Shown here: in pieces, positions 39,099-52,707 of the stretch | Position numbering within the stretch: position 1 is the stretch's first letter | Layout of the letters: every line of letters starts with the position of its first letter | Source: Psychrobacter sp. P2G3 | GTDB taxonomy: Bacteria > Pseudomonadota > Gammaproteobacteria > Pseudomonadales > Moraxellaceae | Assembly: GCF_001593285.1 (NCBI RefSeq) | Contig: NZ_CP012529.1 | Coordinates: 496,001-560,000 of the forward strand | Reading direction: 5' to 3' | DNA length: 64,000 nucleotides | Made by a program: the position numbers and the translations under genes | Notes under the pieces: generated by a model | The model's input: the letters and a program-made list of their open reading frames with translations, nothing else | Database searches by the model: none | What the model was told of the DNA's origin: nothing

Positions 39099-42000
39099 AT
39101 GGCATACAAAAAACGCTTTGATACCAGTAGCGCCTATGGTCAGTTGATCATATTGGTGTTTTTGCCGATTTGTGTGTTGGCAGCGGTCGGTGGCATTCTA
39201 GTTTTTCATGAAACTATGCGTGCCAGTGAATCAGAGCAAGAGGCTTTAGCTGAAGCCGTGTTGATTCGTTATAAACCTATGGTAACTGAGCTGATCCCTG
39301 CATTGTTGGAGCAAGAACGTCAGCAGTCAAAAGCTAATGAGGAAAATTCTCAAAATATGGTTAGTGATATGGCGGCTGCTAGCCAAGCGGCACTTGAAAA
39401 CAATATCCGACCTGAAAATCTACCCTTATCTCAAGTACATTCAGACCATTATATTAGTGCTCGTGGTGGTAGATTGAGTAGTGCAATACTATCAGAAGAA
39501 GCGCTGGGAGGAATGCCTACCTCTCATTCATCTACTGCTCGAGTAATTGATGAAAGTCTCAGTGCGACAACTGATGCTCCTAAAGGCGCCATGGCAACAT
39601 TGGTATCGATTCGCGATAGACTGAGTCGTATGCAGTCGGAACAGCATGTACAACGCATTGCAATTATCAATGAGAATGATCAGGTGCTCGCGACGGTAGG
39701 TTATGGGGTTAGTGAAAGCTGGCCTTTAATTGATACGTCGCAAAATTTTTTATCACAGCAAGCCACGCCTATTGGTACGGCTTATGGCAGCGTATTGGGT
39801 GATTTTGAAGGACAAAGATTGTGGCTGTTCGTCGATATGGATAATGAACCGCTTTACATTGCGCGCTACCGTATCGCTATGGCGCTGGTTATTACCGGTC
39901 TCTTTACTATCTTAATCTTGCTGTTGAGTCTTAATATTTATGCCAAACGCTGGATTGCGCCTATTTATGAGCTGCGTTTGCAGCTACAGCGTACTCATGT
40001 AGATAATTTATATAAGCCTATTCCAGTAGAGTCCGATGGTGAGTTGAACTTGCTGCAACAAGACTTGGTAAAAACTTTACGGCGCTTGCACTCAAGTTTT
40101 CAAGAATTAAAAGATCATGCTGAACAGACCGAGGATGACTTACGTCTGGCTTTTGATGAGATGGAAATGCAAAACATCTCTATCCGCAATGCGCGTGATG
40201 ATGCGATTTCAACCAGCCAAGCCAAATCTGCATTTTTAGCCAATATTAGTCATGAGCTGCGGACACCGCTGAATAGCATCGATGGTTTTATCAATCTGCT
40301 GGCACGCCACGGTGAGCTAAATCCTGAGCAAGACTTATATGTGCATACGATTCGTAAATCGTCTGCGCATCTACTGGCGCTCGTGAATGATGTGTTGGAC
40401 TTCTCTAAGATTGAAGCAGGTAAGTTGGTGCTTGATCGTCATGAGTTTGACCTTTACGACACCATATATGACGTGGTCGATATGCTCTCTCCAGTATCGG
40501 CGGAGAAAGGCCTACGTATGGCCGTGTTGTTCTACAATGATGTGCCAATGCGCATTGTGGGTGATGCGCTACGCCTTAAGCAGGTTTTGACCAATCTAGT
40601 CGGTAATGCCATTAAGTTTACAGATAGCGGTGATGTAGTAGTGCGGGTAAGCTTGGACGATCATCGCGATAATTATCTGATGATTAGTGTCCAAGATAGT
40701 GGTAAAGGGATTTCTCTAGCAGATCAAAAGATGTTATTTCAAAGCTTTAGCCAAGGCGATCCATCCATTACACGTCAGTATGGCGGCACAGGGCTGGGCC
40801 TTGTAATCTCTAAGCAATTAACGCGCCTTATGGGCGGTGATATTGGTTTTTATGATAACGCCCAAGAGAACATAGCCAATCAAGGGGCGACGTTTTGGTT
40901 CCGCATGCCAACTCATATCGATGTGTTAGAAGCGGCGACAGGGCAGACCATTGCATTACCGGTACTGGCGCCACTTGCCAGCGAAAATGATGAATTTAAC
41001 GTCTTGGTTTGGATCAATCACAACGCTTCCAGACAAGTACTCAAAGCCAGCTTGCAGACCTTACCGATTAAGCTTACTCAGGCCAACTCTTTGCCAGGTG
41101 TGCTTGAGTCGCTCAAAGAGCAGGGCAATTATTGGGACTGGGTAATCGTTGATAATGATACTCAAGATGACATGATGGCACTGCTTAAACAAATTCGTTT
41201 GCATTATCAAGGTAAGCTCGCTGTCTTTGGCTATCAGGTTGCCGCCGATCAGGCACTATTGAACCGTTATCACGCCAATATCCTATATGAGCCGTTGGAT
41301 AAAAGGCAGCTGTATGCCATGCTTGATACCCAAAAGAAAAGCGAACCAATCGAAGCGCAAGCACCGCGCTGGCATGGCGTGACTGTGCTTGCTGTAGACG
41401 ATCATCTGCCCAATCTCTTGGTGTTAGATGCACTTCTCAGCGAGCTTGGCATTCACGTCATTACTGCCAATAGTGGCTTTGATGCTATTGAATTGATTAG
41501 TAAACAGCAAACTAAAAATATAAAAAATGCTAAACCTACTCAGCAAAGCTTATCCAACAAAACGCAGATTTCAAAAGCCCAAGCTCGTGCTCAAATCAAT
41601 ACAGCTTCTACTAATACTGCATCGACTACAGATATGCACACAGAAGAAAAATCGGCTAACTCAAAAAATAAGGCGCAAGATAAGGCACAGGATAAAGACA
41701 GTATCGATCTTATCTTTATGGATATCCAAATGCCGCGCATGTCAGGACGCGAGGCAGCGCAGCAAATTCGCAAAATCGAAGTCGGTGATAGTCATATTCC
41801 TATTATTGCGTTAACCGCGCATGGATTATCTGACGAGCGTGACAAGCTGCTCGCGTGCGGTATCGATGATTATGTTGGCAAACCAATCAGCCAACCGCAA
41901 TTGTTACAAGTGCTACAAAAATGGTTAGGGCGCACGTCAACCACACAAAGTCTGAGCACAGTTACGCCTGCTGATGATATTAATAGCATAGCTCCTGAGG

Positions 42001-42680
42001 TCATAGATAGTGCTAGTGTCAGCACGCCAAAAAGCACGCCAGTAGATAAACCAGTACCGCGCCCATTATCATTAAAGAAAATTCGTGACGATTATATGCG
42101 GGATATTCAACCTCGTGATGATTATATGCGAGAACCGCAACGTGTTACTCAGCCGCGTTATCAAGGCTTACAATACCAAGACCAACTGCAAGAGTCTTCC
42201 AGCGAACAAGATGGGCAATCACAAGAGCAGTCGTCAAAAGACAACGGTTGGAAGAGTAGTGCTATTGATGGACTAAAGGTATTGGACTGGGAAGACGCCT
42301 TGACCCGTTCGGCGAATAAGCCAGATCTTGCTGCTAAGCTAATCATTATGATGATTGATACGATTGCAGATGAAAAAGACGCCTTGGCTCAAGCATGGCA
42401 GGCACGAGACCGAAACATGCTCGCGCAAGTTGCGCATCGAATCTTAGGTGCAAGTCGTTATACTGGTGTTCCGCAATTACGGCAAGCTAGCCAAGACTTA
42501 GAAGATAAGTGCTTATTAAATGTACAACACACTACGCCAGCACAGTTTGCAATGCTCAAGCCTTATCATGAAGCCCTATTGCTCGCGTTGACCAATTTAC
42601 AGATGCTTGATCTATCTCCATACCCGCAATTGACCTATCACCGTCTAAGCGAAAATGATATGACATGGAAGATGATTTAA
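39099..42680 (+). CDS. gacS: GacS/BarA-type hybrid sensor histidine kinase
   Basis: 1193 residues. It has an N-terminal TM segment (residues 15-35), a long periplasmic sensor, a second TM segment (around 265-285), HAMP, and HisKA with His385 in ISHELRTPLNS. The ATPase follows (NLVGNAIKFTDSGD, GGTGLGLVISKQL). Next are a degenerate receiver-like region, a receiver with Asp875 in LIFMDIQMPRMSG, and a C-terminal Hpt with His1113 in VAHRILGASRYTG. The receiver carries about 60 extra Lys/Gln/Thr/Asn-rich residues (about 803-866) before Asp875. GacS phosphorylates GacA; gacA is not here. A linker before the Hpt repeats RDDYMR twice. Confidence 0.93.
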   Translation: MAYKKRFDTSSAYGQLIILVFLPICVLAAVGGILVFHETMRASESEQEALAEAVLIRYKPMVTELIPALLEQERQQSKANEENSQNMVSDMAAASQAALENNIRPENLPLSQVHSDHYISARGGRLSSAILSEEALGGMPTSHSSTARVIDESLSATTDAPKGAMATLVSIRDRLSRMQSEQHVQRIAIINENDQVLATVGYGVSESWPLIDTSQNFLSQQATPIGTAYGSVLGDFEGQRLWLFVDMDNEPLYIARYRIAMALVITGLFTILILLLSLNIYAKRWIAPIYELRLQLQRTHVDNLYKPIPVESDGELNLLQQDLVKTLRRLHSSFQELKDHAEQTEDDLRLAFDEMEMQNISIRNARDDAISTSQAKSAFLANISHELRTPLNSIDGFINLLARHGELNPEQDLYVHTIRKSSAHLLALVNDVLDFSKIEAGKLVLDRHEFDLYDTIYDVVDMLSPVSAEKGLRMAVLFYNDVPMRIVGDALRLKQVLTNLVGNAIKFTDSGDVVVRVSLDDHRDNYLMISVQDSGKGISLADQKMLFQSFSQGDPSITRQYGGTGLGLVISKQLTRLMGGDIGFYDNAQENIANQGATFWFRMPTHIDVLEAATGQTIALPVLAPLASENDEFNVLVWINHNASRQVLKASLQTLPIKLTQANSLPGVLESLKEQGNYWDWVIVDNDTQDDMMALLKQIRLHYQGKLAVFGYQVAADQALLNRYHANILYEPLDKRQLYAMLDTQKKSEPIEAQAPRWHGVTVLAVDDHLPNLLVLDALLSELGIHVITANSGFDAIELISKQQTKNIKNAKPTQQSLSNKTQISKAQARAQINTASTNTASTTDMHTEEKSANSKNKAQDKAQDKDSIDLIFMDIQMPRMSGREAAQQIRKIEVGDSHIPIIALTAHGLSDERDKLLACGIDDYVGKPISQPQLLQVLQKWLGRTSTTQSLSTVTPADDINSIAPEVIDSASVSTPKSTPVDKPVPRPLSLKKIRDDYMRDIQPRDDYMREPQRVTQPRYQGLQYQDQLQESSSEQDGQSQEQSSKDNGWKSSAIDGLKVLDWEDALTRSANKPDLAAKLIIMMIDTIADEKDALAQAWQARDRNMLAQVAHRILGASRYTGVPQLRQASQDLEDKCLLNVQHTTPAQFAMLKPYHEALLLALTNLQMLDLSPYPQLTYHRLSENDMTWKMI

Positions 42681-45500: not shown

Positions 45501-45528
45501 AAAGTTACTGAAGTATTATCGAATGTAA
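45501..45528 (+). promoter_or_regulatory. Shared 28-bp upstream block, copy 1
   Basis: It begins AAAGTTACT and ends TGTAA, and is identical to copy 3 (47897-47924) at 24 of 28 positions without gaps. It ends 93 bases before the first binding-protein gene. It is a candidate common promoter or operator. The rest of the 45245-45621 gap holds only the preceding terminator. Confidence 0.6.
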
Positions 45529-45621
45529 TAGTTTGTATTTAATATTATGAAGATATTCTACAAATCTATTAAGTTTTTATTCGAGGTATAGCAAATATTT
45601 TCTAATGTTCAAGGATGAGTT

Positions 45622-46506
45622 ATGAAGACATTGTATAAAGTACTTCCAATTATGTTAAGTGTTGGATTGTTTGGATGTAGCAACTCCACTAATAACGCGA
45701 CTACGCAAGAGAATGCTAATAACAGTAGTACAGCAGCTGTTGAAAACAAAAGTCAATTTGTAAGTAAGTTGCCTGATACAGCGCCAATAGTGAAGCTTTC
45801 TACTGATGCACAGTTTGCGCCTTATGGTTTTAACGATGAGTACGGTAGTGTCACTGGGTTTGATATCGATCTCATGCGTCAGATCGGTGAAGATCAAGGA
45901 TTTAAAGTCGAGATCTATAGTGATCCATGGGAAGAGGTGTTTGAAAACTTAGATAACAAAACTCGAGATATGCTTGCAGCAGCTGTGCCTTATAGTGCTG
46001 AGCGTGATCGGAAGTACTTACTTTCAGATCCATATGCGCCGCTACCATCAAGCCTTGTATATTTAGATAAATCCTTAGAACTCAAATCGTTAAAAGATTT
46101 AGGTAGTGTCAAAATAGGAGTGCTCGGTGATACGGTACAACATAAATATTTTAGTAGCGGTGAAAACAAAGTTGAATCTGTCACTCCATATCCATCAACT
46201 TTCTTAGCAGTAAAAGCAATGGCACAAGGTGAAGTCGACGCTGTCGCAGAGGATGCTGGTGCCCTTCGTTATATTATGAACGACCTGCCTGACTTACAAC
46301 CAAATTATTTCGACTATGAAGATATTCATGCAGAAAGTGCATACAAAGTACTCCTTGTTGAAAGAGATCAACCTGAGTTACTTGAGAAGGTAAATGCAGG
46401 TCTAAAAAGTCTTAAAGAGAATGGTACTTATGCCACCTTAACCACAAAGTGGTTTGGTGAAGATTTGACGCAAGCAGTTTCACAGCAGCGTAAACCAAAT
46501 ACTTAA
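45622..46506 (+). CDS. Family-3 solute-binding lipoprotein 1
   Basis: 294 residues. The lipobox LFGC follows a signal peptide shared almost exactly with the next two genes (MKTLYKVLPIMLSVGLFGC). An SBP_bac_3 domain follows (APYGFNDEYGSVTGFDIDLM). Residues that bind the amino-acid backbone in this family seem kept: Arg in YSAERDRKYLLSDPY and Asp in VDAVAEDAG. No ABC permease or ATPase gene is nearby, so it may be a receptor rather than a transport component. AAGGA precedes the ATG. Confidence 0.9.
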   Translation: MKTLYKVLPIMLSVGLFGCSNSTNNATTQENANNSSTAAVENKSQFVSKLPDTAPIVKLSTDAQFAPYGFNDEYGSVTGFDIDLMRQIGEDQGFKVEIYSDPWEEVFENLDNKTRDMLAAAVPYSAERDRKYLLSDPYAPLPSSLVYLDKSLELKSLKDLGSVKIGVLGDTVQHKYFSSGENKVESVTPYPSTFLAVKAMAQGEVDAVAEDAGALRYIMNDLPDLQPNYFDYEDIHAESAYKVLLVERDQPELLEKVNAGLKSLKENGTYATLTTKWFGEDLTQAVSQQRKPNT

Positions 46507-46520
46507 TATTTATGAGGTAA

Positions 46521-46584
46521 AAAAACTTTTAATTAATTAAAAGTTTTTCTCTAAAGAGCATTCATGCGTATGAATGCTTCTTTT
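46521..46584 (+). terminator. Palindrome and terminator after binding-protein gene 1 (family member 2)
   Basis: A perfect 28-bp palindrome (AAAAACTTTTAATT and its complement, 46521-46548) is followed by AGCATTCAT-GCGT-ATGAATGCT (46557-46578) and a T-rich tail. The second hairpin shares its stem with the terminator at 47720. Confidence 0.85.
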
Positions 46585-46698
46585 TGTTTTATATGTTCAA
46601 CAATGTTCTTCACTATTATTCGTCTAAGAACAAGTGTTATTTGTTCGGATAATACAGATCAGTACTACTTTTAAGTGATGAATAGCTGTTGCTATTGG

Positions 46699-46726
46699 AA
46701 AGTTACTTAATTATCAATCAGTGTAA
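46699..46726 (+). promoter_or_regulatory. Shared 28-bp upstream block, copy 2
   Basis: It begins AAAGTTACTTAA and ends TGTAA, and matches copy 3 at 24 of 28 positions. It ends 59 bases before the second binding-protein gene. Confidence 0.6.
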
Positions 46727-46785
46727 CAATCTATTAGATTGTTATTAAAAGAAATATAAAATTTCTTAAAATTTGGGGACAAAAG

Positions 46786-47673
46786 ATGAAAACCTTGTAT
46801 AAAGTACTTCCGATCATACTAAGTGTTGGTTTGTTTGGTTGTGGCAACTCTAGTACTTCTAATAATGCCGCTACTCAAGAAAGCACTAGTACGCCTACTA
46901 CCAAAGGTAAAGATGACTTTGTTAGTAAGTTACCTGATACAGCCCCTGTGATTAAGATGGGTACTGAAGCAAACTATGCTCCATATGAGTTTAAGGACGA
47001 ATACGGCAATGTTACTGGATTTGATATAGAACTCATGAATCATATTGGTGAGTCTCAAGGCTTTAAGGTTGAGGTCTATAATGATCCTTGGAAGAAGCTG
47101 TTTGATAATATAGATAGTAAGAATAGAGATATGGTGGCAGCTGGTCTTACTTACAGTGATGAAAGAAATAGCAAATATTTACTGTCAGATGCTTATGCGC
47201 CCCTGCCTACCAGCCTAGTGTATTTAGATGATAAATTGAATATCAAGTCATTAAATGATTTGAATGACGTGCGTATTGGTGTATTAAGCGATTCTGAACC
47301 TTATCAGTTTTTTGCAAAAGGCGATTATAAAGTGGGTGCTCTAGAACAGTATCCAACCACATTTGCAGCAGTACAAGCTATGGCACAAGATAAAGTCGAT
47401 GCGGTCGTAGATGATTCTGGTGTTATTCGCTATTTATTAAACGATTTATCAGATTTAACGCCAATATATTTTGACTATGAAGGTATTGGTGCAGATGGTG
47501 CTCGAAAAGTTTTCCTCATTGATAAAAATCAGCCTGAATTACTTAAAAAGGTCAATGCAGGGCTAGAAGGGTTAAAAAAAGATGGTACTTATGCTGTGTT
47601 AACGACAAAATGGTTTGGTGAAGACTTGACTGAAACGGCTTTAAAACAGCAAAAAATGTTAAAGACAAGCTAG
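46786..47673 (+). CDS. Family-3 solute-binding lipoprotein 2
   Basis: 295 residues. The signal peptide and lipobox (LFGC) are nearly the same as in lipoprotein 1. The mature domain is closely related along its length (KLPDTAPVIKMGTEANYAPY; KYLLSDAYAPLPTSLVYLD; GTYAVLTTKWFGEDL). The amino-acid contacts Arg (YSDERNSKY) and Asp (VDAVVDDSG) are kept. It looks like a recent tandem duplicate of lipoprotein 1 that kept the upstream block and terminator. GGGG precedes the ATG. Confidence 0.9.
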   Translation: MKTLYKVLPIILSVGLFGCGNSSTSNNAATQESTSTPTTKGKDDFVSKLPDTAPVIKMGTEANYAPYEFKDEYGNVTGFDIELMNHIGESQGFKVEVYNDPWKKLFDNIDSKNRDMVAAGLTYSDERNSKYLLSDAYAPLPTSLVYLDDKLNIKSLNDLNDVRIGVLSDSEPYQFFAKGDYKVGALEQYPTTFAAVQAMAQDKVDAVVDDSGVIRYLLNDLSDLTPIYFDYEGIGADGARKVFLIDKNQPELLKKVNAGLEGLKKDGTYAVLTTKWFGEDLTETALKQQKMLKTS

Positions 47674-47719
47674 AAATCGATAAAATCAAAGCGATCTGAC
47701 CTTTTATATTGTTTTTTAC

Positions 47720-47760
47720 AAAAAAGCATTCATACGATTAATACGTATGAATGCTTTTTT
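47720..47760 (+). terminator. Terminator after binding-protein gene 2 (family member 3)
   Basis: A perfect 17-bp stem (AAAAAAGCATTCATACG and its complement) surrounds a 7-base loop, with A and T tracts on both sides. It is a strong terminator. Confidence 0.93.
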
Positions 47761-48189
47761 GTGTTCCTAACAAAATATAAGCCTACCTAAACTCGAAACT
47801 GTATTTTTCATTAGGCTATAAACGCAAACAGATGTTTATATACCATCAAATGAAAATAGATATCATTTACTATCCGCTTACCTTGATTGCTTTTGCAAAG
47901 TTACTTAAGTATTATTCATTGTAAATTTCTGTAATAAAGATATGGTTTATTTGTCGTAGAAACATACTAAATTGTTATTGGATGCATTTTTAGAAAATAT
48001 TGAATCAATAACTTTTTATCAAAAGATTCTATCGTTGAAGGCTATCTGCCTTCACTACGGCATATCAATACACTATACAAAAGATACGTAAGCAAAATTA
48101 TTTTTCATTCTGCATAAATGACTAAATATTAAAGCTAGCGATCATTACTAACTAAAACGTACATGTTTTTCAATTTTCAAGGACAGATC
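47761..48189 (+). other. Gap before binding-protein gene 3
   Basis: About 430 bases with no supported gene. It holds copy 3 of the 28-bp block (47897-47924) and a perfect small hairpin TGAAGGC-TATCT-GCCTTCA (48036-48054). The distance from the block to the gene (265 bases) is much longer than for copies 1 and 2, so a leader of about 200 bases or more, or a separate promoter, is likely. Confidence 0.55.
47897..47924 (+). promoter_or_regulatory. Shared 28-bp upstream block, copy 3
   Basis: It begins AAAGTTACTTAAG and ends TGTAA, and matches copies 1 and 2 at 24 of 28 positions each. It ends 265 bases before the third binding-protein gene. Confidence 0.6.
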
Positions 48190-49071
48190 ATGAAGCAATT
48201 ATATCGAGTACTTCCTATCGTACTAAGTGTTGGGTTATTTGGCTGTGGCAATTCTAATAATGCTACTACTACTGCTACGCAAGAGAGCGCAAATACCAAC
48301 AGTCCAGCAGTAACAGAAAGCAAAGATACTTTTGTAAGTAAGTTACCTGATAGCGCTCCAGTAATTAAAGTAGCTACAACGGGTACGATGCCTCCATTCT
48401 CTTTCCAAGATGACTACGGCAATATGCAAGGTATCGATATTGATGCAATCCGCGCAATCGGTGAAGAGCAAGGCTTTAAGGTTGAGTTTTATAAAGAGAC
48501 TTGGCAGGATATGTTCGATAGTGTGGAGAGTGGTGGTCGTGATCTAGCGGTATCGGGTATCTCTTACAAAGACGACCGTAACGTAAAGTATGGCCTATCA
48601 ACACCTTACTTTTTCAATCCATCAGCCATGATGTACTCAAATAAAGATTTAAAACTAAATAGTTTAGAAGATTTAGGAGGGTTGCATGTTGCAGGTATGG
48701 AAGGCGCAAAACCAGCAGAGCAGTTAAAAGAGATTGGTAAATATGGTGAGCTTTCTACAAGAACCACAGCCTTTTTACTATTTGAAGACTTGATGCAAAA
48801 TAAGGTTGACGTCATCCTACATGATTTGCCTATTTTGCAATATACCGCAAAAACTCATCCAGAATATAAAGTCACTATCGTGCCTTATGAAGGAGAGGAT
48901 ACGCCATCAGCACAACAAGTAGTACTTATAGCAAAAGGTAACACTGATTTAATTAAAACTGTTAACGAAGGCATCACCAAGCTTAAAACAGAAGGCACGT
49001 TTAAAGCGATTGAAGAGAAATGGTTAGGTGGAACTCAACCTGCTGCCGAAACTACTGAGCAAGCAAACTAA
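48190..49071 (+). CDS. Family-3 solute-binding lipoprotein 3 (kinase-linked)
   Basis: 293 residues. The ATG at 48190 (MKQLYRVLPIVLSVGLFGC) has AAGGA seven bases upstream and fits the two paralogs; the frame extends nine residues further but without support. It has a lipobox (LFGC) and an SBP_bac_3 domain more divergent than in lipoproteins 1 and 2 (PPFSFQDDYGNMQGIDIDAI; MMYSNKDLKLNSLEDLG). Arg in YKDDRNVKYG and Asp in VDVILHDLP are in the ligand-contact positions. It ends 12 bases before the CheA-like kinase, so the two are surely co-transcribed. Confidence 0.9.
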   Translation: MKQLYRVLPIVLSVGLFGCGNSNNATTTATQESANTNSPAVTESKDTFVSKLPDSAPVIKVATTGTMPPFSFQDDYGNMQGIDIDAIRAIGEEQGFKVEFYKETWQDMFDSVESGGRDLAVSGISYKDDRNVKYGLSTPYFFNPSAMMYSNKDLKLNSLEDLGGLHVAGMEGAKPAEQLKEIGKYGELSTRTTAFLLFEDLMQNKVDVILHDLPILQYTAKTHPEYKVTIVPYEGEDTPSAQQVVLIAKGNTDLIKTVNEGITKLKTEGTFKAIEEKWLGGTQPAAETTEQAN

Positions 49072-49083
49072 AGGATTTTCAAA

Positions 49084-51291
49084 ATGGCAACCACACATAA
49101 TGTCGATAATAAACGTTATCAGGGTCTGATCATCTCAATTGCACTATTTTTATCCTTGATCGGTGCTTTGCTCGCGTTTACGTTTTATACCTCAAGTTTA
49201 TTAGAAAGAAATACGATTCTAATTGACCAAACCAACCAAGTGGCTAACAGCGCGCAAGCGGTGATTAAAGACTTATTTGACTTAGACAACAGTTATGGTG
49301 AGGACACCAACTCTCCACATATGCAGCGGGTTTTTGAGCGCTTAGAGCGGAATACTTCATTAATTACTGACTCTATTGCTGCTATCGGACAAGGCGGCAC
49401 GATTACTGATGCTGATGGCAACAGTTATAATTTGCCGAAAGTTGATAGTGTTGCGCAAGCAGAAATTACGGCAGCTAATGAGCAATGGCAACTTTTAGAG
49501 CCTAAGATTCAAGCTTATCTGAAAGATGCTGATAACATCATGGTTGACTCTGCAGATGAGCTGACTCAAGCGGTTGAACAGGCAAAAACTTCAAGTTTGC
49601 TTATTAACGACTCTTTAGATCAACTTACTGATGACGTATTTACGAGTGCTGAGAACCAAGCAAATACCATTCGTCTGATTCAGGTACTTGGTGTTGTTGC
49701 TATCTTCTCTTACTTCTTGATCTTCGTATTCTTCTTTGTACGTCGCTTGCGTGATACTGATGCTGAAGCATTGGCTGCACGTCGCGAAACACAAGAGATT
49801 ATGCAAACGGTTAATACAGGTTTGTTCTTGCTTGATAAAGACTTAAATATCGGTCAGCAGCATTCACAGGCACTTAATAGTATTATTGGCGCTGACAGCT
49901 TGGCAGGAGAAAACTTTGCCAACGTACTACGTGGGCGTATTTCTGATAAAGATCTAACGACCACCCGTCAATTCGTTGAGCAACTATATAACCCACGCGT
50001 TAAAGAGAAACTTGTCAACGACCTTAATCCTCTACATAAAGTCTTGCTACATAACACATCTGGTGAGCATGGTTCAGACAGTCGTTTCTTGGATTTTAGA
50101 TTCTCACGTGTTTATGAAGATAAAGATATTGCTCGTATTTTGGTCAACGTTAATGATGTGTCAGACGCTGTTTACTTAGAACAACGTCTAGAAAAAGAGC
50201 GCTCACAGAATGACATGCAGATTGAGATGTTAACAACCATCTTGAACGTAAATCCAAAAATCATTAATGAGTTCATCGCTAATACCAAAAGTCATATCGA
50301 AAAAATCAATAATGTATTGAAGAATCCTGGAAGCACGCAATACGAGCTTGAGGTTAAGTTAAACTCTATCTATCGTGAAATGCATAGCTTGAAAGGTGAG
50401 GCTTCAGCATTAAAACTGCATAGTTTTACTAAGATTGCATCAGAGGCAGAAGACCAGCTTAACGTGCTACAAAATCAAGGCAAGCTATCAGGTAATGATT
50501 TCCTACCTTTGGCAGTGCATTTAGATGACTTATTGAGCCTATCTAATACTATCGAAAAATTAGGAGAACGTATAAATCGTTCGTCACCAGCAAGTGCAGC
50601 GAATAGCAGTGCGGCGACAACACCAAACTCTGTAGTGGCAGATTCGAGTACGCCTGTAGCCGAGACTCAAGCAACAAACTTTTCGATGAATGATTTAGAA
50701 GTTGAAGGTAATAATATTGACTTAGAGGAAGAGTCAGATAATCATCTACTAGCTTATTATCATGATTTTGCGCAAGATATTGCAGCAAGACAAGGTAAAC
50801 AAGTACAGCTTGATAGTACTACTTTAGGGCAAGTTAGAATACCAGAACGCCTTAGAAATACCGTTAAAGAAATTAGTATCCAGCTGCTACGTAACGCTGT
50901 AGTGCACGGTATTGAGACACCTGATATACGTCAATCAGTGGGTAAACCTGCTGTTGGTACTATTGGTCTAGAAATGCAAAGTAGTGGCCAAGACTTCGTT
51001 GTTACTTTACAAGATGACGGCCAAGGCATTGACTATGACAGTATTCGTGAAAAGCTAGTCAAAGAAGGTCGTTTCGATGTACAAGAAGCGAGTCAGCTTG
51101 ATCATAGTGGCTTACTAAAGCAACTATTTTCTTCTGGGTTTTCTACCAAGGAGAATGCGGACGAAGACGGCGGTCGCGGTGTTGGTTTAGATATCATCAA
51201 GGCTCAAGTAAAAGAATACGATGGTAAGCTCAATATAAATAGTGAGTATGGCAAGATGACGCGTTTTGTCATTACGCTACCTAACGCTTAA
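49084..51291 (+). CDS. Membrane-anchored CheA-like histidine kinase
   Basis: 735 residues. TM1 (about 15-36), a helical periplasmic region (about 40-195, possibly four-helix or PilJ-like; NEQWQLLEPKIQAYL), TM2 (about 200-221), and a PAS-like domain (about 235-370; TVNTGLFLLDKDLNI). An Hpt domain has His434 in EMHSLKGEASALKL, the CheA P1 style. A Ser/Thr/Ala linker leads to a CheA-type ATPase with Asn604 in LLRNAVVHGIE, then DDGQGID and GGRGVGLDIIK. The protein ends right after the ATPase: no CheW-like P5 domain is present. It should phosphorylate the CheY-like protein next door. It follows lipoprotein 3 after 12 bases. Confidence 0.88.
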   Translation: MATTHNVDNKRYQGLIISIALFLSLIGALLAFTFYTSSLLERNTILIDQTNQVANSAQAVIKDLFDLDNSYGEDTNSPHMQRVFERLERNTSLITDSIAAIGQGGTITDADGNSYNLPKVDSVAQAEITAANEQWQLLEPKIQAYLKDADNIMVDSADELTQAVEQAKTSSLLINDSLDQLTDDVFTSAENQANTIRLIQVLGVVAIFSYFLIFVFFFVRRLRDTDAEALAARRETQEIMQTVNTGLFLLDKDLNIGQQHSQALNSIIGADSLAGENFANVLRGRISDKDLTTTRQFVEQLYNPRVKEKLVNDLNPLHKVLLHNTSGEHGSDSRFLDFRFSRVYEDKDIARILVNVNDVSDAVYLEQRLEKERSQNDMQIEMLTTILNVNPKIINEFIANTKSHIEKINNVLKNPGSTQYELEVKLNSIYREMHSLKGEASALKLHSFTKIASEAEDQLNVLQNQGKLSGNDFLPLAVHLDDLLSLSNTIEKLGERINRSSPASAANSSAATTPNSVVADSSTPVAETQATNFSMNDLEVEGNNIDLEEESDNHLLAYYHDFAQDIAARQGKQVQLDSTTLGQVRIPERLRNTVKEISIQLLRNAVVHGIETPDIRQSVGKPAVGTIGLEMQSSGQDFVVTLQDDGQGIDYDSIREKLVKEGRFDVQEASQLDHSGLLKQLFSSGFSTKENADEDGGRGVGLDIIKAQVKEYDGKLNINSEYGKMTRFVITLPNA

Positions 51292-51311
51292 TTAAGGATA
51301 ATAGATACGTT

Positions 51312-51674
51312 ATGTATAAACTAATGATTGTTGATGATTCCAATATTATCCGGAACCGGATTCAGCGGGCTTATGACTCAGGAAATTTCATGTTGGTTGC
51401 TACAGCAACCAGTGGTGTTCAAGCCATTGAAAAATTCAATATGCATCGCCCAGATGTCATCACGATGGATCTAACCATGCCGCAAATGGATGGTCTGGAA
51501 TGTATCGAGAAGATTATTGCTATTGATCCTGATGTACGGATTTTGGTTGTATCGGCTTTGTCTGATAAATCTACAGGTATTGAAGCATTATCGTTGGGCG
51601 CCAGCGGGTTTCTCTGTAAACCTTTTTCAGAAGAAGATCTCGTAGAATCTTTGTATGAGCTGATGCAAGACTGA
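51312..51674 (+). CDS. CheY-like single-domain response regulator
   Basis: 120 residues, only a receiver domain. The acidic pair is in MIVDDSN, the phospho-acceptor Asp53 in TMDLTMPQMDG, the Thr/Ser switch in VVSALSD and the Lys in FLCKPFSEEDL. It has no DNA-binding or enzymatic output domain. It starts 20 bases after the kinase and is its probable partner. Its target is unknown. Confidence 0.92.
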   Translation: MYKLMIVDDSNIIRNRIQRAYDSGNFMLVATATSGVQAIEKFNMHRPDVITMDLTMPQMDGLECIEKIIAIDPDVRILVVSALSDKSTGIEALSLGASGFLCKPFSEEDLVESLYELMQD

Positions 51675-51704
51675 TATCATCCAACGACTTAAGTAGATGT
51701 AATT

Positions 51705-52154
51705 ATGAAAGAACAAAAGCTACAGATTTTTTTGAACATTATTAGCAACTATTTTAACCAGTTTGGGGGTGCAGAGCTCATCGCTGATACTCCCTACTTG
51801 TTAGAAAATAAACAGCCAAAAGTCCATGACTATACAGGTGTAATTGGTATATCAGGGGTTCAAAAAGGCGTGGTGTACTTTTCAGCAACGCGTGAATTAC
51901 TGGCTTCTATATTAAACAGTATGGGCGAAACTGACGAGAGTGAAGATATTTACATGGACCTTGCGGGTGAGGTTGCCAATACGATAGCTGGCAATGCACG
52001 CAATGAGTTTGGTGCAGAATTTCATATCTCGGTACCGTTCGTGTTTAAAGGTTCACCGCAAAGTATTGTATTACCTAGCGGTGAGCGTTCCTTTATCATT
52101 CCCATCACTTGGCTGTCGCAAGTCGGCGAGATTGTGGTCTGTCTGCAGGATTAA
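51705..52154 (+). CDS. CheX-type CheY-P phosphatase 1
   Basis: 149 residues. It carries the CheX/CheC catalytic motif DxxxExxN as DLAGEVANTIAGN, with Glu89 and Asn92, in the expected mid-protein helix. In this family the Glu and Asn side chains help remove phosphate from CheY. It starts 30 bases after the receiver gene. The upstream Shine-Dalgarno sequence is weak. Confidence 0.88.
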   Translation: MKEQKLQIFLNIISNYFNQFGGAELIADTPYLLENKQPKVHDYTGVIGISGVQKGVVYFSATRELLASILNSMGETDESEDIYMDLAGEVANTIAGNARNEFGAEFHISVPFVFKGSPQSIVLPSGERSFIIPITWLSQVGEIVVCLQD

Positions 52155-52195
52155 TTATCCTGCTGGCACGTGATGAATATGGACAATAATATATT

Positions 52196-52645
52196 ATGGT
52201 TAAAGTAGAGAAGTTAGGTGTGTTTCTAAGTTCGATTAATGCATTTTTTACGCAGATCGATGACGCACAAGTGGCTATTAGCACTCCTTATTTAAATAAC
52301 AACAGAAGCGCTATTGGTTATGACTATAGCGGTGTTATTGAAATATCAGGCCCTCTTAAAGGCTGTGTTTATGTGAGCGCTCCAAGCATTATGCTGCGCG
52401 AGGTTATCAAAGTTATGGGTGAGCCTGATTCATCAATTACGATGATGAAAGACTTACTTGGTGAAATGGCCAATACCATATCTGGTAACGCGCGTACTGA
52501 ATTTGGTTCGGAGTTCATCATCTCGCCACCTAAGATTGTTGAAGGTGCACCAAGCGTATCTTATCTGCCAAAAGACCGGCATAGTTACATTACACCCTTC
52601 ACATGGCGCGGCTATGAGGCAGTGATAGGTATCTGTATCGCTTAA
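52196..52645 (+). CDS. CheX-type CheY-P phosphatase 2
   Basis: 149 residues, a paralog of the preceding protein with the motif DLLGEMANTISGN (Glu90, Asn93). The overall layout is the same (YLNNNRSAIGYDYSGVIEIS against YLLENKQPKVHDYTGVIGIS). Both copies keep the catalytic pair, so both may be active or form a heterodimer. There is little Shine-Dalgarno signal. It is the last gene before a terminator. Confidence 0.87.
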   Translation: MVKVEKLGVFLSSINAFFTQIDDAQVAISTPYLNNNRSAIGYDYSGVIEISGPLKGCVYVSAPSIMLREVIKVMGEPDSSITMMKDLLGEMANTISGNARTEFGSEFIISPPKIVEGAPSVSYLPKDRHSYITPFTWRGYEAVIGICIA

Positions 52646-52676
52646 TCTAAATTAATCAGCAAAACTGGCTATGATT

Positions 52677-52707
52677 AAAAAAACGACGTATATGCGTCGT
52701 TTTTTTG
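52677..52707 (+). terminator. Terminator of the chemosensory-like operon
   Basis: ACGACG pairs with CGTCGT around TATATG, flanked by an A-run and a T-run of seven each. Confidence 0.9.

Follow-up and report, generated by a model that had tools for sequence, protein, structure and literature searches.

Solute-binding proteins (SBPs) of the SBP_bac_3 family usually serve ATP-binding cassette (ABC) importers. Other SBPs act on sensor kinases, as in the XylFII-LytS, TorT-TorS, and LuxP-LuxQ systems, whose kinases are, to our knowledge, not of the CheA type. LytS and TorS bind SBPs according to PMC6321045, and for the GlnH-GlnX-PknG system of Corynebacterium it has been proposed that an SBP_bac_3 protein contacts a four-helix bundle in the periplasm and thereby controls a kinase (PMC9769921). 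Here we describe a locus in a 64,000-nucleotide stretch of Psychrobacter sp. P2G3 (contig NZ_CP012529.1, positions 496,001 to 560,000; hereafter the window), in which three paralogous SBP_bac_3 lipoproteins (SBP1, SBP2, and SBP3) lie upstream of a CheA-like membrane kinase, a CheY, and two CheX proteins (CheX1 and CheX2). A first-pass annotation of this DNA had proposed this composition, and the open reading frames (ORFs) and Pfam matches agree with it. By comparing related genomes, we found that the outside sensor of the kinase and the neighboring lipoprotein are exchanged between strains as one unit. Because the sensor travels together with the lipoprotein, this exchange suggests that the lipoprotein is the nutrient-sensing partner of the kinase.

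Kinases were detected with a PAS-Hpt profile, and proteins were counted as SBP3 relatives at E ≤ 1e-40. The kinase occurs in 100 of 348 family genomes, including 82 of the 105 genus genomes, and an SBP3 relative was present in 72 of the 82 genus genomes with the kinase but in none of the 23 without it (Fisher test, 1e-15, uncorrected for relatedness). In 81 of the 82 genus loci the kinase occurs with CheY and two CheX frames, L169 lacking the CheX2 frame and L122 having shortened frames; the gene set is conserved together in related genomes, a point on which the annotation had made its reading depend. Outside the genus the core is sparse, being found in 12 of 369 class genomes (E ≤ 1e-20) and in 3 of 398 phylum genomes, the own genome counted in both. 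The 82 loci comprise the window and 81 others, five of which (L161, L162, L163, L167, and L169) have broken or cut kinases and were placed outside the classes defined below. In L161, L167, and L169 the kinase gene is split into two frames; L161 and L167 have a split SBP3 as well.

The 77 full-length genus kinases were classed by the nearest SBP. Class A contains 57 kinases with an SBP3-type protein plus three with a shortened SBP3 frame, class B contains eight (seven with an SBP1/2-type protein and one with a divergent SBP), and nine kinases have no neighboring SBP. Eight of these nine fall in one sensor clade (support 100), and the seven SBP1/2-type kinases fall in another (support 99). Mean identity between classes was 78–93% over residues 221–480 (79–91% for class A versus the SBP-less kinases), and over residues 36–195 it was 34–65% for A versus B and 13–21% for A versus the SBP-less kinases. 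On trees of 73 of the 77 loci (L088 and L168 being among those missing, and L123, L126, and L129, with short SBP frames, being treated as SBP3-type), the labels A, B, and none changed only twice on the sensor tree, the minimum possible, as compared with 10 times for PAS-Hpt, 11 for CheY/CheX, and 11 for the major facilitator superfamily (MFS) protein, ECH, RpsB, and Tsf combined. Over 106 kinases, consisting of the 77 from the genus and 29 chosen others (leaving out L274, L282–L285, and the class-wide and PilJ-type relatives), the labels changed 8 times on the sensor (least possible, 5) and 22 times on PAS-Hpt.

Two near-identical pairs of loci, L103/L104 and L097/L157, are the most direct examples. 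In these pairs, the MFS proteins are 99.5% and CheY and CheX1 100% identical, and the SBPs are only 40–43% identical. At the DNA level, identity is 80–100% outside and 28–84% over the mature SBP plus sensor, the low-identity block starting at about SBP codons 27–60 and ending near kinase codon 190–200, at the second transmembrane helix (TM2). In these pairs the mature SBP and the sensor were replaced as a single block. Within class A (40 of 56 loci after removal of near-copies), partial Mantel tests moreover gave a correlation of 0.42 between SBP and sensor given PAS-Hpt (0 of 2000 permutations), versus 0.09 between SBP and PAS-Hpt given the sensor (p 0.08).

All three lipoproteins match SBP_bac_3 in Pfam (E 1.6e-32, 4.5e-34, and 1.1e-32 for SBP1, SBP2, and SBP3) and have lipobox-like N-termini. 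SBP1 and SBP2 share 62% identity, and SBP3 is 40–41% identical to either. The start of SBP3 is probably 27 bases downstream of that of the listed frame, since Met10 is Met in 64 of 65 aligned relatives. Its lipobox cysteine (Cys28), Arg139, and Asp221 are invariant in all 65 aligned kinase-proximal SBPs of the genus, and Arg139 and Asp221 align with an Arg and an Asp of the amino-acid-binding protein AncQR, at positions that presumably hold the ligand carboxylate and amine. An amino acid is therefore the likely ligand of SBP3, as judged from this match and invariance.

In the kinase, Pfam detects Hpt (PF01627, 30.5 bits against a cut-off of 24.6) and HATPase_c, both above cut-off. His434, in the motif MHSLKG, occupies the Hpt phospho-acceptor position and is intact, and the best PDB sequence match of the P4 domain is Thermotoga CheA over residues 564–733 (E 7e-29). 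A PDB search with the whole kinase returned ATPase domains only (10 CheA and 2 other kinase sequences), and the matches to NCBIfam CheA models lie far below cut-off. No CheW (PF01584) match indicative of P5 was found in the kinase at E ≤ 0.01, nor at the locus in a whole-genome search, and the protein ends with P4. A Pfam scan likewise gave no H-kinase_dim (P3) match at E ≤ 0.01, no profile-profile search having been made; in the AlphaFold2 (AF2) model, residues 501–551 between Hpt and P4 are disordered. PMC10542144 states that HMMER often misses P3 and that CheW/P5 occurs in 100% of its surveyed CheA set. Because no P5 was found, the kinase is CheA-like but lies outside CheA as the family is defined there.

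Hydropathy analysis revealed exactly two membrane stretches, at about residues 11–40 and 195–223 (19-residue windows starting at 11–22 and 195–205), so that the predicted topology places a periplasmic sensor between two transmembrane helices. The AF2 model (mean predicted local distance difference test score 72.0; predicted template-modeling score 0.31; domain arrangement unsure) places a helix bundle between long helices, followed by a PAS-like domain, a coil (residues 360–386), Hpt, the disordered segment, and P4. The PAS-like domain has no Pfam match in the kinase, and weak PAS matches below cut-off were obtained only in the relative L077. By structural alignment, the sensor model resembles the helix bundles of PilJ, LytS, and TorS; its most variable part, residues 81–160, falls in the model on helices 2 and 3 with the hairpin that joins them.

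The two CheX proteins match PF13690 with 78.8 and 71 bits, and the ExxN motif, the catalytic motif of CheX phosphatases, is intact in both (E89/N92 and E90/N93), as is the phospho-acceptor Asp53 of CheY. We consider that the locus and the comparisons above are best explained, with a probability of roughly 0.72, by a pathway in which SBP3 signals the presence of an amino acid to the kinase, the kinase phosphorylates CheY, and CheX resets the signal. SBP3 would then be an amino-acid-binding lipoprotein, tethered to the membrane, that is dedicated to the kinase and not to transport. Whichever the direction of the effect, either its loaded or its empty form would bind the periplasmic bundle, probably at helices 2 and 3, and the state of the bundle would pass through TM2, the PAS-like domain, and the coiled coil to the CheA-type catalytic core. 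P4 would phosphorylate His434 of Hpt, from which the phosphoryl group would be transferred to Asp53 of CheY, and CheX1 and CheX2 would dephosphorylate CheY-P. SBP and sensor would together form one specificity cassette, recombined between strains onto a constant kinase-CheY-CheX core.

The target of CheY, on which it would act in trans, is probably non-flagellar and may be the type IV pilus/ChpA machinery. A flagellar target was considered and rejected, because a search of the window genome gave no FliM match (the positive control matched in 4 of 14 genomes). Far from the locus, at about 2.82–2.83 Mb of contig C1, this genome has one MCP (methyl-accepting chemotaxis protein) domain and two CheW-domain frames (176 and 2332 residues), which we take to be a PilJ/PilI/ChpA-type array; the two receivers beside its CheW frame are only 27–31% identical to the locus CheY. 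The suggestion that the locus replaces the usual MCP array does not hold, as MCP, CheW, and a ChpA-like protein are encoded elsewhere in the genome. The genes 3' of CheX vary between genomes, encoding a receiver-Ser/Thr kinase (L191), an ammonium transporter (L197), a nitroreductase (L190), or a TonB-like protein (L189). The receiver-Ser/Thr-kinase fusion (PF00072 and PF00069) that comes after kinase, CheY, and CheX in L191 (6155–10585) is a possible pathway output. In L198 (2023–10608) the kinase-CheY-CheX unit is present twice in tandem, and behind each unit lies a protein that has no match in Pfam, the two being similar by eye.

Related kinases have other partners. Eleven of them (Moraxella, Neisseriaceae, and Moraxellaceae) are preceded at 9–67 nt by a Peripla_BP_4-type protein (assigned by Pfam for L071 and L270 and by BLAST for the other nine), with a lipobox in 10 of the 11, the eleventh frame reaching the contig end. 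Their sensors form one clade with those of L230, L269, and L280 (support 99), and no CheX directly follows the first CheY in any of the eight of these 11 loci with enough sequence. A Peripla_BP_4 neighbor is absent at the related kinases L273, L274, L276, L278, and L233, and BLAST found no SBP1-3-like or Peripla_BP_4-like gene beside the kinases of Cellvibrio, Zhongshania, and other relatives. Among 13 relatives scanned, a PilJ domain was above cut-off in three (L076, L192, and L196) and dCache in one (L079). Since core kinases carry such differing partners and sensor domains, the sensor seems, from these comparisons, to have been exchanged at least twice on a single core. Two system types stand in tandem in L270 (2658–10777), where the genes for a Peripla_BP_4 lipoprotein, a kinase, and a CheY come first and another kinase-CheY-CheX set lies immediately after them. 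Psychrobacter sp. I-STPA10 (L082 and L219–L221) apparently has three copies of a second, 836-residue kinase type followed by CheY, with the same lengths and scores.

The idea that SBP-less kinases retain relics of an SBP was rejected, because no match at E ≤ 0.01 was obtained by tblastn with nine SBPs in any of 27 loci; a repeat of the search that included four loci with an SBP recovered it in all four. For the SBP-less kinases with A/B-like sensors, unlinked SBPs were looked up in M. lacunata and in the L168 genome. For M. lacunata, a protein search found, outside the L264 stretch, an SBP lipoprotein that shares 63% identity with the SBP adjoining the kinase of L267, and the L168 genome has three unlinked SBP relatives with no permease among the neighbors scanned. 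In L205, L206, and L207, unlinked SBP2/SBP3 relatives adjoin MmgE/PrpD, DUF2868, NADAR-DarT1, or TauE genes, not permeases.

Three other explanations can be set against a dedicated SBP3-kinase pair. The lipoproteins might be conventional SBPs for transport, using shared permeases from other loci, with the kinase sensing directly through its PilJ-like bundle, and the customary service of the family to ABC importers speaks for this. So does PMC6381276, according to which direct binding of a small ligand by a PilJ domain is possible. However, the window genome has nine SBP_bac_3 matches, three at the locus (541–545 kb) and one partial, and five HEQRo-type permease matches on contig C1 (456–457, 465–466, and 2476 kb), each group of which adjoins other SBPs (453–455, 464, and 2476 kb); the locus lipoproteins are the only full-length SBP_bac_3 proteins there without a neighboring HEQRo-type permease. 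Every such permease match already has an SBP beside it; at the level of sequence, the lipoproteins were thus not found to serve a transporter encoded elsewhere, which the annotation had named as a refuting outcome. Permease sharing would not predict, moreover, that the SBP follows the kinase from genome to genome, and no permease was found among the eight neighbors scanned of the unlinked SBPs of G077 and G078. We regard this explanation as very improbable. That all three lipoproteins feed the same kinase, as a multi-ligand receptor, gains some weight from the joint occurrence of SBP1–SBP3 in one stretch in the window and L091 and of two lipoproteins in L089, L090, L133, L106, and L107, but is unlikely: an SBP1/2-type lipoprotein is nearest the kinase only with a sensor of one separate clade (7 of 7), and 51 of 57 class A loci have a single SBP frame in the stretch examined. 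The annotation had all three lipoproteins reporting to the periplasmic domain of the kinase; this is supported at the level of sequence for SBP3, whose type tracks the sensor type, and is only partly supported as a whole because SBP1 and SBP2 belong to the type nearest another sensor class. These two may be left over from a former cassette or may supply additional inputs.

In the remaining alternative, SBP and sensor, both of which face the outside of the inner membrane, co-vary by linkage or shared external pressure without touching, and the lipoproteins do another job. SBP and sensor are adjacent, with a gap of 12 nt in 45 of 57 class A loci, so that joint transfer by hitchhiking on a single recombination tract could look like co-evolution, and the breakpoints fall in conserved flanks, as recombination alone would favor. 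Linkage accounts poorly, however, for the eight kinases with a very different sensor that lack an SBP and whose genomes have no SBP relative at E ≤ 1e-40, for a second binding-protein family accompanying its own sensor clade, and for the two genomes in which an unlinked SBP exists without a neighboring one; the MFS gene, close on the other side, also tracks the SBP less than the sensor does (partial correlation 0.14 versus 0.42). We thus consider linkage alone quite improbable. Several further observations nevertheless weigh against SBP3 as the dedicated partner. The raw correlations differ modestly (0.54 for SBP-sensor versus 0.33–0.38 for PAS-Hpt, P4, MFS, and RpsB), the partial correlation of SBP with MFS given the sensor is still 0.14 (p 0.04), and the trees were built by a quick method and carry long-branch warnings. 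Against the sensor model, the scores of designed bundles come close to that of PilJ, and the one Foldseek match at E ≤ 0.001 was to a receptor domain from Vibrio with D-lysine. No SBP neighbors five Moraxellaceae kinases (L070, L264, L265, L266, and L272) and L168, all with A/B-like sensors, or L230, L269, and L280 of the Peripla_BP_4 sensor clade; short or split SBP3 frames lie beside full-length kinases in L123, L126, and L129; and L271 has an SBP3-type lipoprotein, yet its sensor groups nearer the B-type (an unsettled fork in the tree). Finally, all four readable transporter SBPs of the window genome are also lipoproteins (the fifth, L036, is unread). Lipidation was accordingly rejected as a mark of signaling SBPs, transporter SBPs of the same genome being lipidated as well.

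Table 1 Features of the locus, in window positions.
Feature	Position	Strand	Description
SBP1	45622-46506	+	SBP_bac_3 lipoprotein, 294 aa (ORF list, Pfam)
SBP2	46786-47673	+	SBP_bac_3 lipoprotein, 295 aa (ORF list, Pfam)
SBP3	48163-49071 (likely start 48190)	+	SBP_bac_3 lipoprotein, predicted kinase partner
Kinase	49084-51291	+	Transmembrane CheA-like kinase, 735 aa
Kinase residues 36-196	49189-49671	+	Predicted periplasmic helix-bundle sensor, swaps with SBP (AF2, structural alignment, hydropathy)
Kinase residues 245-358	49816-50157	+	PAS-like alpha/beta domain (model)
Kinase residues 391-500	50254-50583	+	Hpt (P1-like) helices; His434 codon 50383-50385
Kinase residues 554-735	50743-51288	+	CheA-type P4 ATPase domain
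CheY	51312-51674	+	Single receiver domain (Response_reg), Asp53
CheX1	51705-52154	+	Phosphatase family, motif E89-xx-N92
CheX2	52196-52645	+	Phosphatase family, motif E90-xx-N93

SBP3 lies exactly 12 bases from the kinase, as first annotated. The absence of an ABC permease, CheW, MCP, CheR, and CheB was likewise confirmed among window ORFs of at least 90 residues, CheR and CheB not having been searched genome-wide. The seven-gene locus is flanked by an MFS transporter gene (Pfam) on one side and, on the other, by genes that we take from sequence resemblance to be rpsB and tsf. A scan of the locus gave fewer promoter-like sites than shuffled sequences (13 versus 27.5) and four terminator-like sites (5.2 in shuffles), one of them 3' of SBP1 at 46556–46579. 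Shortly upstream, at 39099–42680, lies a hybrid histidine kinase of 1193 residues, presumably BarA-like, with no evidence linking it to the locus.

No publication describing this system was found, as judged from titles and abstract beginnings, and the "CheA-like" protein of PMC5907407 is a different protein. We regard the system as real and conserved, and as a new variation on SBP-dependent sensor kinases in which the core is CheA-like. A broader proposal, to which we give somewhat less than even odds, is an unrecognized class of array-free chemosensory system, in which a transmembrane CheA-like receptor-kinase carries an exchangeable lipoprotein-plus-bundle cassette, has recruited two unrelated binding-protein families, has undergone repeated swaps in Psychrobacter, and steers surface behavior, such as that based on type IV pili, through CheY-P. 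If true, the system would link the textbook design of SBP-assisted chemoreceptors with that of one-protein sensor kinases, and would provide a nutrient-sensing CheY pathway outside the pilus array for Moraxellaceae and Neisseriaceae, which are generally non-flagellated. Natural strain pairs differing mainly in the lipoprotein-sensor block offer ready-made experiments on SBP-to-bundle signaling and indicate where specificity is located.

Compared with the importer SBPs, the lipoproteins here have no neighboring permease or ATPase. Unlike the canonical MCP-CheW-CheA array, the locus has no dedicated MCP or CheW, and it differs from the Pil-Chp system in lacking an MCP signaling domain and CheW and in the low identity of its CheY to the array-side receivers. 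With CheA the kinase shares an Hpt phospho-acceptor and a CheA-type P4, with CheY and CheX encoded downstream, but it has no CheW/P5, no detected P3, and is a transmembrane protein with its own sensor. In GlnH-GlnX-PknG, the Ser/Thr kinase is a separate protein, whereas the bundle of the present locus is part of a CheA-type histidine kinase. The closest designs are the SBP-dependent sensor kinases of XylFII-LytS, TorT-TorS, and LuxP-LuxQ; like that design, the present locus has a predicted periplasmic sensor between two transmembrane helices and an SBP gene that is adjacent and outside a transporter operon, and it is distinguished from them by a CheA-type P4 with an internal Hpt, a single-domain CheY with CheX, a predicted SBP_bac_3 partner, and natural exchange of the cassette.

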